This document shows, piece by piece, positions 53,245 through 62,715 of a DNA stretch of 64,000 nt (position 1 is the first letter of the stretch; the number at the start of each line of letters is the position of its first letter). This DNA is from Caldinitratiruptor microaerophilus (lineage in GTDB: Bacteria; Bacillota; Sulfobacillia; Symbiobacteriales; ZC4RG38): the NCBI RefSeq assembly GCF_025999835.1, contig NZ_AP025628.1, positions 682,001 through 746,000 of the forward strand. Reading direction: 5' to 3'. The notes below the pieces were generated by a model that saw only the letters and a program-made list of their open reading frames with translations, did no database searches and was not told where the DNA came from. A program made the position numbers and the translations under genes.

Positions 53245-53348
53245 TCGGCTTCACCGGATCGGTTCAACGTCTGTTATACGGGGCGCGCGGGTCCCCGCGC
53301 ATCCCCGTCCCCGACGATCCTCGCGTACCCGACGATGGGGTGACGGCA

Positions 53349-55190
53349 GTGTGGCGCGATCCCCCGACCGGACCCCCGGACTCCGCCCGACAGCTGGTGG
53401 CCGTGCTGGAGGCGACCACCGACCTCGTCGCGACGCTGGAGGCCGCGGGCCGGCTCCTGTACCTCAATCCGGCCGGCCGGCGCCTGCTCGGGCTGGACGT
53501 GGACAGGGACGTGAGGGACCTCCGGGTCGGTGACCTGTTTCCGGAGCGGCTGCGCGCGCAGGTCCTGGACGAGGCGCTGCCGGCGGCGATTCGTGCCGGC
53601 GCCTGGAGCGGGGAGACAGTGCTCGCGGCTGCCGGCGGCCGCGAGATCCCGGTATCGATCGTCTTCCTCGCGCACAAGGCACCGGACGGCACGGTGGAGT
53701 TCCTCTCCGCCATCGCGCGGGACATCGCCGCGCACAAGCGCCTGGAGGAGGAACTGCTCCACCTGGCGAACCACGACGACCTCACGGGCCTCCTGAACCG
53801 CCGCCGCTTTCAGCAGGAGCTCGAACGGGAGCTGGCCCAGGCGCGGCGGTACGGCACCCACGGGGCCCTCCTCTTCGTCGACTTCGACAACTTCAAGGCG
53901 GTGAACGACTCGCTGGGCCACCGGGTCGGCGACCAGATGCTGGTCCGGCTGGCGGGGCTCCTCCGGGAGCAGCTGCGGGAAACGGACGTCCCGGCGCGCC
54001 TCGGCGGGGACGAGTTTGCCGTGCTGATGCCGCATACCGGGCCGGAGGAGGCGGAGATCGCCGCCCGGCGGATCCTGAAGGCCGTCCGGGAGCACCGCAC
54101 CGTCGTGGGCGAACAGGCCGTGGGGGTCACCGCGAGCATCGGCATCGCGGTGTACCCCGAGCACGGGACGACGGCAGAGGAACTGCTCACCCGGGCGGAT
54201 CACGCCGTGTACGAGGCCAAGAAGACCGGCGACCGCCACTGCGTCTACGCGCCGGGCGAGGGGCCCCACCAGCCGATCGGGGGTCCCCGGCCGCAGCCAC
54301 CCCGGACCCCTGGCTCGCCGGAGCTCGATTCCCTCTGGGCCAGCGGCCTGGCCCGGGGGCTCATCGCCCCGGTGTCGGCCCTTCGCCGGGCGGTCGACGC
54401 GCTCGCCGGCCGCCCTCCGGACGCCGGCGAGATCGCGGACGCGGCCCGACTGGAGCTGAGCCGGCTGGAGCGGGTCGTCCAGGCGCTCCACGTCGTGGCC
54501 GATCTGGACCGGGTCGGGCCGCGCACCCTGGAGCCGGTCCCGGCCCAGGACCTGCTACTGCAGGCGGCGGAATCGCTCAAGGATCGGGCCGACGCCCAGG
54601 GCGTCCGCTTCTTCGTTCCCACCGGCCGGCCGGCCCTGCCGGGGCAGGAGACGCCGGGCGGACAGCCGGTCGGGGACTGGCTGGTGGTGACCGCACACCC
54701 GGCGCTCCTGCGGCAGGCCTTCTCGTTCCTGCTCGAGAACGCGCTCGATGCCATGCCGGGCGGCGGCCTCATCCTCCTTGACTGGACGGCCGAGGAAGAC
54801 GGGGTGCGACTCGACGTCATCGACAGCGGTCCGGGCATCGACCCGGAGGTGCAGGGGCGGGTGTTCGAGCCGTTCTTCACCACGCGCCCCGACCGCCTGG
54901 GCGTGGGTCTCACCCTCTGCCAGGCGATCGTGCGGGCCCACGGCGGCACCGTCCGGCTGGGGGCCGGAGTGGCGGGCGGGGTCCGGGCCTCCGTCTTCCT
55001 CCCTCGCCGGAGACCGGGCGGGACCGGGCCGCGCCCTGCCGGGATGGCCGGCGGCCAGGAGCCGGCATCCGCCGCGGAGTCCGCCCGCGCTCGCCTGGAA
55101 CTCTACCGTCTGGTCGATGCGCTCGGGCCGGAGGACGTCCCCGTGGCGCGGCGCTTCCTCGAGCTTCTGAGCCGGGCGGACGGCCCGTGA
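53349..55190 (+). CDS. PAS-GGDEF protein fused to a histidine-kinase-like ATPase lacking the acceptor His
   Basis: This 613-residue protein starts at GTG 53349 after GGGGTGA. Residues 15-130 are PAS (VLEATTDLVATLEAAGRLLYLNPAGRRLLG). Residues 135-300 are a full GGDEF domain: the inhibitory site RETD, five residues, then GGDEF (219-223), so diguanylate cyclase activity with c-di-GMP feedback is expected. Residues 330-540 look like a kinase core: LARGLIAPVSALRRAV aligns with the H-E-x-x-N-P-L box but has Arg where the phospho-His belongs, followed by an intact ATPase (LLENALDAM, DSGPGID, GVGLTL). The tail is short and helical. Confidence 0.9.
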   Translation: MWRDPPTGPPDSARQLVAVLEATTDLVATLEAAGRLLYLNPAGRRLLGLDVDRDVRDLRVGDLFPERLRAQVLDEALPAAIRAGAWSGETVLAAAGGREIPVSIVFLAHKAPDGTVEFLSAIARDIAAHKRLEEELLHLANHDDLTGLLNRRRFQQELERELAQARRYGTHGALLFVDFDNFKAVNDSLGHRVGDQMLVRLAGLLREQLRETDVPARLGGDEFAVLMPHTGPEEAEIAARRILKAVREHRTVVGEQAVGVTASIGIAVYPEHGTTAEELLTRADHAVYEAKKTGDRHCVYAPGEGPHQPIGGPRPQPPRTPGSPELDSLWASGLARGLIAPVSALRRAVDALAGRPPDAGEIADAARLELSRLERVVQALHVVADLDRVGPRTLEPVPAQDLLLQAAESLKDRADAQGVRFFVPTGRPALPGQETPGGQPVGDWLVVTAHPALLRQAFSFLLENALDAMPGGGLILLDWTAEEDGVRLDVIDSGPGIDPEVQGRVFEPFFTTRPDRLGVGLTLCQAIVRAHGGTVRLGAGVAGGVRASVFLPRRRPGGTGPRPAGMAGGQEPASAAESARARLELYRLVDALGPEDVPVARRFLELLSRADGP

Positions 55191-58475: not shown

Positions 58476-59450
58476 GTGGCGGTCCGGGCCCTGGCCCGCG
58501 TGCCGGGCACCTGGGGGGAGCTGGTACAGGGGGCCCTCGACGGGGTCGACTTTCTCATCACGTGCCCCGTCGACCTGTGGGTGGATGCCCTGGCCAGTGC
58601 CGGGCGCGCCGGCGCCGACCTGCGTGGCGCCGGGCGGACCCACGCCGGCTGGCGGGCGCCGCCCGGCCGGGAGAAGGTCGCTGCGGTCCTGGCCAGCCTC
58701 CCCGGCCGGGGGCGGGTACGGATCTGGAGCCCCCTGCGGCCCGGAGCCGGCATGGGGAGCAGCACCGCCGACATGGCGGCGGCGCTGGCCGCCGCGGCGG
58801 CAGCCGGCGGCCGGCCTCTCGATCCCCTGGACGTCTTTCGCCGCTGCCTGGCCGTCGAGCCCACCGACGGACTGATGCTGCCCGGCATCGCCCTGGTCGA
58901 CCACCGCCGGGGCCGGCGTGTCGAGCCCCTGGGTCCGGCACCGCCCCTCGTGATCCTGGGAGTCGACCCGGGCGGTGCCGTGCCCACCCGGGATTTCAAT
59001 CGCCGGGAGGATCTCGACGCGGCCAACCGCCGCAAGGAGCCGCTGGTGCGGGAGGCGCACGACCTTGCCGTGCGGGCCGTCGCCGCCGGGGATCCAGCCG
59101 CCCTGGCGGCGGCAGCGACGCTCAGCGCCCGCGCGCACCAGGCAATCCTGCCGAATCCGCTGTGGGAGCGGGCCACTGCCCTTGCGAGGGAGATCCGGGC
59201 CCTCGGCCTGAACGTGGCCCACAGCGGGGTGGTGCTCGGCTTCCTGCTCGATCCCCGGCACGCGGACGCGCCGGCCGCCCGGGCGTTCCTCGAGCGCCGG
59301 CTGGGCCTGCCGGTCCGGTTCCTGCGCCTGGTCCCGGGCGGGGTGCGGGTCGCGTCACTGGGAAGGGAATTCGTGGGATCCATTCGCGCATCGGAGAGGA
59401 GGCGGCCGGATGCCCCCTCGTGTCCGCATCTGGGGCCGGCACGACGCTGA
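58476..59450 (+). CDS. PduX-like GHMP kinase (L-threonine kinase type)
   Basis: This 324-residue protein starts at GTG 58476. The N-terminus ARVPGTWGELVQGALDGVDFLITCPVDLW matches the PduX pattern (PGTCGELxQG with TCP). The ATP motif is RPGAGMGSSTADMAAALAAA (GLGSS type). Later VEPTDGLMLPGIALVDHRRG and LNVAHSGVVLGFLLD fit as well. PduX phosphorylates L-threonine for cobalamin synthesis. No other cobalamin gene is in the window, so a different alcohol or nucleoside substrate is possible. Its last 41 bases overlap the RtcB start in another frame. Confidence 0.8.
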   Translation: MAVRALARVPGTWGELVQGALDGVDFLITCPVDLWVDALASAGRAGADLRGAGRTHAGWRAPPGREKVAAVLASLPGRGRVRIWSPLRPGAGMGSSTADMAAALAAAAAAGGRPLDPLDVFRRCLAVEPTDGLMLPGIALVDHRRGRRVEPLGPAPPLVILGVDPGGAVPTRDFNRREDLDAANRRKEPLVREAHDLAVRAVAAGDPAALAAAATLSARAHQAILPNPLWERATALAREIRALGLNVAHSGVVLGFLLDPRHADAPAARAFLERRLGLPVRFLRLVPGGVRVASLGREFVGSIRASERRRPDAPSCPHLGPARR

Positions 59451-60615
59451 CACCCTCCGCCAGCTCGAGATGTGTGCCCGAACGGGCGAAGTGGCGGCCG
59501 CGGCACTCATGGCCGACGGGCACAAGGGGTACTCCCAGCCGATCGGGGGCGTGGTCGCCTACCGGGGCCAGATCAGCCCGTCAGGCGTGGGTTTTGACAT
59601 TGCCTGCGGCAACAAGGCGGTGCGCACCGACCTGCGTGCGGAGGAGATCCGCCGCGACCTGCCGCGGATCATGGACGAGATCGCCCGGACCGTGAGCTTC
59701 GGGATCGGACGGAAGAATCCCCGCCCGGTCGACCACGACCTCTTCGACGATCCGGCGTGGACGGTCCACCCCGGCGTGGCGGCCCTCAAGGACCTTGCCC
59801 GCCAGCAGCTCGGGACGGTCGGAGGCGGCAACCACTACGTCGACCTCTTCGAGGAGCCGGCAACGGGCCTCGTCTGGGTGGGGGTGCACTTCGGCAGCCG
59901 CGGCCTCGGGTTCAAGACGGCCACCGGCTTCCTGAACCTCGCCGCCGGCCGGCCGTTCGACGCGCCGGGCCGGCGGGAGTCGATGGACCAGCCCCCGGTG
60001 GTCCTCTCCCTTCGCTCGGACCTCGGCCAGGCTTACCTGGAGGCCATGAAGCTGGCCGGCCGGTACGCCTACGCCGGGCGGGACTACGTGGTGAACCAGG
60101 TACTGGCGATCCTGGGCGCCCGGCCGACCCTCGAGGTGCACAACCACCACAATTACGCCTGGATCGAGAAACACGACGGCGAAGAGCTCGTCGTCGTCCG
60201 CAAGGGAGCCACGCCGAACTGGCCGGGCCAGCTGAGCTTCATCGGCGGCTCGATGGCCGACATCGCCGTCATCGTGCGCGGCAAGAACAGCCCCGAGGCG
60301 CGGGACGCCCTGTACAGCACCGTCCACGGGGCGGGGCGGATCATGAGCCGGACCCAGGCGGCAGGCAAGTGGAAGCGCGTGCGGGGGCGCCGTGTGCGGA
60401 TCGGGGGCGCGGTGAGCGAGGAGGCGATGCGCCAGGCCGTGCGCGGCTACGGCGTGGAGCTGCGCGGCGGCGGTCCGGACGAGGCGCCCCAGGTGTACCG
60501 CCCCCTGCAGGAGGTCCTCGACGCCCACCGGGGGACCCTCGAGATCGTCCACGTCCTGCGGCCGATCGGGGTCGCCATGGCCGGGCCGGAGGAGGAAGAC
60601 CCGTACAAGGATTAG
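59410..60615 (+). CDS. rtcB: RtcB-type RNA ligase
   Basis: This 401-residue protein starts at ATG 59410 with GGAGG eight bases upstream, inside the end of the kinase gene. Motifs are MADGHKGYSQPIGGVVAY, VGFDIACGNKAV with metal Cys67, TVGGGNHYVDLFEE, VGVHFGSRGLG, VHNHHNYAW and the guanylylated His in STVHGAGRIMSR. RtcB joins RNA 3'-phosphate or 2',3'-cyclic phosphate ends to 5'-OH, using GTP. Shorter than E. coli RtcB-like forms by little and lacking the usual N-terminal strand, it looks like an RtcB paralog. No archease gene is nearby. Confidence 0.9.
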   Translation: MPPRVRIWGRHDADTLRQLEMCARTGEVAAAALMADGHKGYSQPIGGVVAYRGQISPSGVGFDIACGNKAVRTDLRAEEIRRDLPRIMDEIARTVSFGIGRKNPRPVDHDLFDDPAWTVHPGVAALKDLARQQLGTVGGGNHYVDLFEEPATGLVWVGVHFGSRGLGFKTATGFLNLAAGRPFDAPGRRESMDQPPVVLSLRSDLGQAYLEAMKLAGRYAYAGRDYVVNQVLAILGARPTLEVHNHHNYAWIEKHDGEELVVVRKGATPNWPGQLSFIGGSMADIAVIVRGKNSPEARDALYSTVHGAGRIMSRTQAAGKWKRVRGRRVRIGGAVSEEAMRQAVRGYGVELRGGGPDEAPQVYRPLQEVLDAHRGTLEIVHVLRPIGVAMAGPEEEDPYKD

Positions 60616-60696: not shown

Positions 60697-62595
60697 TCAC
60701 TCGCCGAGCAAGAGGCCCTCGAGGCGCTCGCCGTAGGCGATCTGAATGAGCCACCGCCCGTGGACGGAAGGCCAGCCCGGGCTGCCGAACCGCCCCGCCT
60801 CCCGGCAGGTGGCGGCGCCCGGCGCGCAGCGCCACACGGTGCCCGAGTCGGCGACCACGACCAGCTCGCCACCGGGAGCCGCCACGGCGGCGAAAGGGCT
60901 CCAGGGCTCCGCGGGCAGCGGCGGCGCCCCGGCTCCGCCCCACCCGGTCGCGAGGGGCTCGGGCGTCCCGCCGGACACCGACTGGATCTCCAACGCCCAC
61001 GTGGGGCCCACGGCCACGATCTGCCCGTAATTGCCGCGGGCCTCGCGGACGCGGGTTGCGGGGCCGCGGAGAGGGAGGAGGAACAGGCCGGCGTCGCCAA
61101 GCGGCTGCCCCGTGTCGACGTCGGCGTCGGGCGTCACCCCTGGCGCTACCCGCGCGGCCCGCACCACGAGGCCGCTGGAGTCCGGCAGCCAGCGCATGTC
61201 GAAGATGAACGGGCCCTCGCCGGGGCGCGCGGACCGGGTCTCCACCGGGAGGGTGAGCGTGGCCACCTCCCGGCCGTCGCGGTCCACCACGCGAACCGCG
61301 CCCGCCAGCAGGAACCCCCCGTCCTCGCCCTGGAGCCAGCGCCCCGTGTACCGTTCACTGCGCACCCGCAGGGCCAGCAGCCGGCCGTCCGGCGACCAGG
61401 CGCCCCCGCCCGGTTCCACGCCGGCCGGCAGGAGCGGCAGTTCCTCGCCGGTGTCCGCCCGGAGGAGGCCCTCCCCGTAGAAGCCGTACAGGACCCGTTC
61501 GCCGTCGGGGGATACTGCCAGGGGCACGGTGCCGGACGGTTCGAACACGGGCATGTTCCGCCGCACCGCTCCCGCGGCGCCCGCCTCGAGGTCGAAGCGG
61601 TAGAGCGTGCCCGTGCTGAGGTAGGCGTACCGGCCGGAGAGCCAGCCCTCCTCGAAGTCGATGGGCCGCACCACGGCCGGCAACGCTGCCAGGCGTCGGA
61701 CGGTGCCCCGGTCGACGTCGTACTCCTCGGCGACGATCGACGGCCGGGCCGGCTTGCCGTCCTCCCCCGTGAAGGTCGTGCGGAGGACGACGAGCCGGTC
61801 GGCGCCCCGCCAGCCCAGCGGGAAGAACCCCACGGTCGGGTACGCGTCGGCGGTGTTGTGGCCGCGGGTCGGGAAGACCACCTGCTCCGCCAGGACGCGG
61901 CGCACCCCGCGCGCCGGGTCGAGCAGCACGAGGCTTTCCAGGGCGTCCTGTGGCTCCTTACCCTCTCCCTGGCTGAGGAGCACGACGGCCAGCCGTTCCC
62001 CGTCCGGGGACGGCAGCCAGCGGGGCGGTGGACCGGCGGGGAGCTGCAGGGACCACCGGGTAGGTTCCGACTGCCACGCCAACCCGTCCCGGAGGGCGCG
62101 CAGTCGCTCGAGCCGCGCGCCTGCCGGCACGGGAGGCAGGGGGGTCAACTCGACTTTGCGGGGCGCGTCGCCCGGGTTCATGAAGTAGTACAAGGGCTGG
62201 TATCCGGGCGCCAGAAAGGCGAACATCCCGTACTCGGGCAGCGTCACCGGCAGCCGCAGCGGCGTCGTGCCCAGAAGCTCGCCTTCCAGGTACACCTCCG
62301 CCCCCGGGGGGTCGGTTTCGACCAGCGCCCCGGTGGCGTTCCCCACTGCCGGTTCCGGCGATTCGCCGCCCGGCCCGGCGCCCGCTTCGGGTTTGCCGGG
62401 GGTGGCCGGCGGCGCCCCGGCGAGGTCCCCTGCCGGGCCGGCGGGAGAGCCGGCGTCCGAGGCGGGGGAGCCCGCCCCCGGTCCCTCGGGCCGGGGGCCT
62501 GGCGGCGTGCGGGCGGGCGTGCCCCCCGTACACGCGGTGGTGGCGGCGATGAGCGCGATCGACGCGAGCCACGCGGCCCGGCGCCTTGCTGTCAT
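60697..62595 (-). CDS. PEGA-domain lipoprotein with beta-propeller-like repeats
   Basis: This 632-residue protein starts MTARRRAAWLASIALIAATTACTGG, a signal peptide ending at a Cys (ATTAC, an atypical lipobox), so it is probably a secreted lipoprotein. A Pro/Gly/Ala-rich linker (residues 25-75) leads to a PEGA domain (VETDPPGAEVYLEGELLGTTPLRLPV) and then WD/TolB-like repeats (RWLPSPDGERLAVVLLSQ, GAWSPDGRLLALRV, LAVSPDGERVLYGF). ATG 62595 has GGAGGT eight bases upstream. It likely binds envelope glycan or other partners outside the membrane; no enzyme site is seen. Confidence 0.85.
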   Translation of the reverse strand: MTARRRAAWLASIALIAATTACTGGTPARTPPGPRPEGPGAGSPASDAGSPAGPAGDLAGAPPATPGKPEAGAGPGGESPEPAVGNATGALVETDPPGAEVYLEGELLGTTPLRLPVTLPEYGMFAFLAPGYQPLYYFMNPGDAPRKVELTPLPPVPAGARLERLRALRDGLAWQSEPTRWSLQLPAGPPPRWLPSPDGERLAVVLLSQGEGKEPQDALESLVLLDPARGVRRVLAEQVVFPTRGHNTADAYPTVGFFPLGWRGADRLVVLRTTFTGEDGKPARPSIVAEEYDVDRGTVRRLAALPAVVRPIDFEEGWLSGRYAYLSTGTLYRFDLEAGAAGAVRRNMPVFEPSGTVPLAVSPDGERVLYGFYGEGLLRADTGEELPLLPAGVEPGGGAWSPDGRLLALRVRSERYTGRWLQGEDGGFLLAGAVRVVDRDGREVATLTLPVETRSARPGEGPFIFDMRWLPDSSGLVVRAARVAPGVTPDADVDTGQPLGDAGLFLLPLRGPATRVREARGNYGQIVAVGPTWALEIQSVSGGTPEPLATGWGGAGAPPLPAEPWSPFAAVAAPGGELVVVADSGTVWRCAPGAATCREAGRFGSPGWPSVHGRWLIQIAYGERLEGLLLGE

Positions 62596-62688
62596 CGGTC
62601 TGACCTCCGGCGGAAGCGTCTTCACAGCGTTTGACGTTGCGCACAGCCCCCGGGTTGCCGGCCCGAAGGCTCGGGCCGTGCAGCTTTT

Positions 62689-62702
62689 CCGATTCGAATC
62701 GG
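62689..62702. promoter_or_regulatory. 14-bp palindrome between divergent genes
   Basis: CCGATTCGAATCGG is a perfect palindrome located 94 bases upstream of the lipoprotein start and 64 bases upstream of the PRD regulator, between divergent genes. A nearby TGACAG direct repeat (62724-62729 and 62734-62739) is one helical turn apart. A role as operator is inference. Confidence 0.5.
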
Positions 62703-62715
62703 CAGAAAGTTTCAC

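Follow-up and report, generated by a model that had tools for sequence, protein, structure and literature searches.

What can a histidine-kinase module still do without its phospho-acceptor histidine when it is joined to a diguanylate cyclase? The question is raised by a gene in a 64,000-nucleotide stretch of the Caldinitratiruptor microaerophilus genome (the window), whose product carries, in this order, a PAS domain, a GGDEF domain, a Pro/Gly-rich linker, a DHp region, and a CA domain. The features of this fusion gene, all on the forward strand, are as follows.

53349..55190, +, fusion gene (CDS; PAS-GGDEF-linker-degenerate DHp-CA), from the list of open reading frames; alternative start GTG 53340
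53391..53738, +, PAS domain (residues 18-133); Pfam PAS_4, E 1.2e-9
53766..54233, +, GGDEF diguanylate cyclase domain (residues 143-298); Pfam GGDEF, E 1.4e-50
53976..53987, +, I-site RETD (residues 213-216), read from the sequence five residues ahead of GGDEF
54234..54338, +, Pro/Gly-rich linker (residues 299-333), by composition and low model pLDDT
54339..54533, +, degenerate DHp (dimerisation) helices, by model helices 29-57 and 62-93 and alignments; no HisKA Pfam match
54354..54356, +, Arg339 (codon CGG) in the phospho-acceptor column, where all 42 ungapped relatives have His
54699..55010, +, HATPase_c/CA domain (residues 454-557); Pfam, E 9.2e-20, and motif conservation
54894..54896, +, Arg519 for the first Gly of the G2 box (DRLGVGL); Gly in 47/49 relatives and in the paralogue
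55011..55187, +, C-terminal tail, predicted helix pair (LYRLVDALGPEDVPVARRFLELL); helices 280-295 and 301-315 at low confidence

The open reading frame comprises 616 amino acids counted from 53340, as are the residue numbers used here, and its third-position GC is 0.88-0.94 in every domain; by length and composition we regard it as genuine. There are two candidate GTG starts (53340 and 53349). Because a possible Shine-Dalgarno sequence (GGGGTGA, 53337-53343) is better spaced for the second, 53349 is more likely the true start; the first-pass annotation had also begun the gene there, and 53340 is kept as the alternative.

Cyclase half and phospho-acceptor site

The PAS domain and the GGDEF domain with an intact I-site, claimed in that annotation from the letters alone, are confirmed by Pfam matches and by the motifs themselves. 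The GGDEF motif (residues 222-226; 54003-54017) and the metal/substrate motif DFDNFK (residues 181-186) are intact, so that the protein has both the signature and the metal-binding Asp of a diguanylate cyclase. In the GGDEF family, an intact GGDEF motif together with an I-site is associated with cyclase activity under product inhibition. Because GGDEF, RETD, and DFDNFK are all intact, synthesis of c-di-GMP with product inhibition is expected, and the fusion protein is probably an active, product-inhibited diguanylate cyclase.

The kinase half is altered where phosphotransfer would take place. In a column profile built from kinase relatives of the organism's own genome and its class, the acceptor column holds His in all 42 ungapped histidine-kinase relatives and Arg339 in the fusion protein; the following column holds an acid in 42 of 43 relatives and Gly340 in the fusion protein. 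Arg, the usual residue of the relatives at H+3, is replaced by Ile, and the phosphatase position at H+4 (Asn or Thr in 39 of 46 relatives) by Ala; the Pro at H+5 is retained. A MAFFT alignment (A1) also puts R339 in the acceptor column, and all ten kinases of the same genome placed beside the fusion protein retain the acceptor His, so the exchange of His for Arg reported earlier stands. A sensitive Pfam scan of the 140-amino-acid stretch from GGDEF to CA failed to detect HisKA at thresholds up to E 10; the same scan recognized HisKA at E 1.5e-10 in a paralogue from the same genome.

Sequencing error was ruled out as the source of Arg339: the paralogue reads CAC GAC CTC CGC ACG CCG and the fusion gene CGG GGG CTC ATC GCC CCG, a two-base change at the acceptor with adjacent codons differing too. 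A nearby alternative acceptor was also rejected, since the His of QALHVV (helix 2) aligns with Leu and the other His residues sit in the CA domain.

The protein thus lacks the H-box His in DHp helix 1 by which HisKA-type kinases are defined, and by the alignments and the model it combines a retained DHp-CA architecture with a non-phosphorylatable acceptor residue, as a pseudo-histidine kinase does. The module is probably a pseudokinase unable to carry phosphate, and autophosphorylation would not be expected of it. Good support for the suggestion that it does not act in phosphotransfer comes from the loss of the acceptor His, the next acid, and the phosphatase Asn/Thr, all kept by the sister kinase.

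Predicted structure, ATP site and origin

Because the full-length alignment misplaced the kinase rows, only the C-terminal half (residues 299-616) was folded with AlphaFold, from a thin alignment of four sequences. The model (mean pLDDT 61.5; DHp blocks 56-71, most CA blocks 78-86) contains two long DHp-like helices (29-57 and 62-93) and then a CA fold; R339, which is residue 41 of the model, lies in the first of these helices, where the kinase-like dimer helix had been proposed. Its matches among crystal structures cover the whole of DHp-CA, with DivL (4q20, Z 19.4) and ZraS (9jfj, Z 18.8) in first ranks that are tied, and Foldseek concurs; a sequence-only comparison with the PDB extended no further than the CA domain of DivL. 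At the confidence of this four-sequence model, the DHp-CA fold of a HisKA-type kinase is predicted to be retained (Z up to 19).

The linker between GGDEF and DHp (35 residues, among them 9 Pro and 5 Gly) is without structure in the model, at very low confidence. Because so long a Pro/Gly-rich stretch splits the two domains, stiff helical coupling from cyclase to DHp is unlikely. The C-terminal tail gave no Pfam match and is missing from the paralogue; its stretch 55095-55187 (LELYRLVDALGPEDVPVARRFLELL), which forms the predicted helix pair, doubtfully resembles one other stretch of the same genome (E 0.26).

The "intact ATPase" of the first-pass annotation needs one correction. The N box (at 54729), G1 box (at 54822), and F box (at 54864) keep the N-box Asn, the G1 Asp with both glycines, and the F-box Phe. 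In the G2 box the last two glycines remain, but the first is Arg519. Judged by these motifs, the ATP site is nearly, though not fully, intact. Conserved CA columns are kept at 25 of 33 positions (26 of 33 in the paralogue) and conserved DHp columns at 3 of 8 (6 of 8 in the paralogue), the latter counts being small.

The paralogue is a PAS kinase of the same genome (L045:5743-7793, match at G000:C1:121118-121792), about 610 kb from the fusion gene and 47-49% identical in the C-terminal half. It has a PAS-like region upstream of its DHp-CA module and a normal H box, AHDLRTP(I), but neither GGDEF nor the Pro-rich linker. A 51-row tree places the two proteins as sisters with 100/100 support; because this sister has the normal AHDLRTP box, the loss of the acceptor His is placed on the fusion protein's own branch. 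That branch is the longer (0.76 changes per column, against 0.28 for the paralogue), which would fit a constraint that relaxed or changed once the module had been fused. Decay of the DHp region was also sought by pairwise identity: the two proteins are 36% identical in DHp and 61% in CA, a contrast that falls inside the range seen among other kinase pairs and does not stand out.

The PAS-GGDEF half has a different affinity. Among the matches listed, its closest relatives are four PAS-GGDEF-EAL proteins of related genera (L050, L051, L052, and L110; 46-51% identical), which share this half with the fusion protein but end in an EAL-type domain rather than a kinase module. The simplest history, we infer, is that the kinase module occupies the former place of the EAL domain. 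If so, one can apparently follow here how a duplicated kinase module entered another protein, where EAL had been, and lost its catalysis afterwards.

Possible roles of the kinase module

DivL is the standard example of a bacterial pseudo-histidine kinase, and we know of few others with a known role. In Caulobacter it has Tyr550 in place of His, and its catalytic domains are repurposed to sense DivK~P; Magnetospirillum DivL has Ala at this position (PMC4211667). Like the fusion protein, DivL joins a PAS sensor to a DHp-CA module whose acceptor His is replaced and whose fold and most motifs are kept (PMC4211667), and 4q20 is among the top matches of the model. In contrast, DivL acts on CckA and is not described as having a GGDEF domain (PMC4211667); apart from the acceptor it keeps the H, N, G1, F, and G2 boxes, whereas in the fusion protein the acid, H+4, and one G2 glycine are altered as well; and DivL has DivK as its partner, whereas the fusion protein has no known DivK-like partner.

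By this analogy we favor, with a probability of about one half, a probably active cyclase carrying a DivL-like pseudokinase that serves dimerisation or docking. The usual C-terminal partner (EAL in the nearest relatives) would here have given way to a DHp-CA module akin to the one in a PAS histidine kinase; the DHp helices of this module could join two cyclase chains or give a response regulator a docking face, and either would set how readily two GGDEF halves meet. The place of DivL among the tied top matches, the CA columns kept (25/33) set against those of DHp (3/8), and the high third-position GC throughout are in favor. On the other side, no response-regulator partner is found among the identified neighbors, the 36% versus 61% contrast is unremarkable, and the DHp columns are few; no orthologue in the samples searched shows the Arg form under constraint, and the module may have drifted after fusion.

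A tentative and rather doubtful alternative makes the module an allosteric sensor of a nucleotide or phospho-regulator, directly controlling the diguanylate cyclase of the same chain. If true, it would link energy state or two-component signaling to c-di-GMP without phosphotransfer. A pseudokinase fused to a second-messenger enzyme would also offer a built-in readout, the rate of c-di-GMP synthesis, of whatever the module senses.

It seems unlikely that the kinase module is a vestige drifting without function, leaving a plain PAS-GGDEF cyclase. The longer branch since duplication, the loss of several catalytic positions and of a G2 glycine, and the lack of an orthologue showing conservation among the matches listed in the class and phylum samples would fit such drift, but frame, third-position GC, and CA motifs are maintained across 290 residues and the model shows a full DHp-CA fold.

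Sensing of ATP or ADP, the idea put forward in the first-pass annotation, is improbable in its specific form, in which the CA domain binds nucleotide, moves against DHp, and tunes c-di-GMP synthesis to energy state. The retained N-box Asn, G1 Asp and glycines, F box, and two G2 glycines speak for it, as do the better preservation of CA than of the DHp catalytic positions and the location of the gene downstream of 2-oxoacid dehydrogenase genes (E1-alpha, E1-beta, and E2). However, the first G2 glycine is Arg, the 35-residue Pro/Gly-rich linker intervenes between GGDEF and DHp, and no diguanylate cyclase regulated in this way was found in the open-licence papers searched. Docking or dimerisation, as in DivL, would fit at least as well.

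Pairing of DHp helices in a mixed dimer with the paralogous PAS kinase is a similarly weak candidate; the Arg protein would block its paralogue, or its CA domain would phosphorylate the paralogue's His in trans. The modules are sisters (100/100) within one genome, their CA regions are 61% identical, and the paralogues ChrS and HrrS do form heterodimers (PMC9491836), but identity is only 36% in the DHp regions, through which the two proteins would pair, and the genes lie about 610 kb apart. A working kinase that uses another acceptor residue is very hard to credit despite the near-complete ATP site, given Gly for the acid beside the acceptor, the loss of the phosphatase Asn/Thr, and the fact that Arg is, to our knowledge, no acceptor in DHp domains.

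Distribution and genomic neighborhood

There are precedents both for dead kinases and for fusions of a kinase with a cyclase; a second copy of the present fusion was not found in the samples searched. Galperin's 2005 census names GSU3350 of Geobacter sulfurreducens as an HK-GGDEF combination (PMC1183210), comparable by that description alone to the fusion protein in uniting histidine kinase and GGDEF in one protein. A dead acceptor and a cyclase in one protein were not found together in the open-licence papers searched.

The distribution searches used drawn samples and best matches, so that the rarity they indicate is not proof of absence. No orthologue of the full architecture appeared among the matches listed in a sample of 154 genomes of the class, in one of 398 genomes of the phylum, or in a scan of GTDB contigs. 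Among the matches listed, plasmids yielded 0 records with a full-length relative (80% cover), and viral contigs yielded no relatives. For the C-terminal half alone, the paralogue is the only close relative among the matches listed (61 relatives plus the phylum sample); at E < 1e-22, the phylum sample adds to it one generic kinase among the matches listed. Within the genome itself there are 39 HATPase_c and 11 GGDEF matches, and by their coordinates the two occur in one frame only in the fusion gene. Two other proteins of this genome are unusual in their own right: a GGDEF protein (L005; G000:C1, near 1412600) whose EAL domain ends early (...RSSHTS) and is possibly truncated, and a kinase (L070; G000:C1, near 2181900) with the unusual H box AHELGHPLS.

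The E1-alpha, E1-beta, and E2 genes upstream of the fusion gene are accompanied by an NAD-kinase-like gene, which we take to be AcoX-like; downstream, on the other strand, are genes for a zinc-type dehydrogenase and an M20 peptidase. No response regulator was found among the identified neighbors of either the fusion gene or its paralogue. Judged by their neighboring genes, both could have a part in 2-oxoacid oxidation. In L045 (5743-7793 and 11213-12975), the paralogue lies near genes for subunits of a 2-oxoacid:ferredoxin oxidoreductase, one assigned to POR by Pfam and the others by appearance. Farther along the window, on the reverse strand (60697-62715), a 672-amino-acid protein with a weak PEGA domain is encoded next to an RtcB-like gene (59410-60615).
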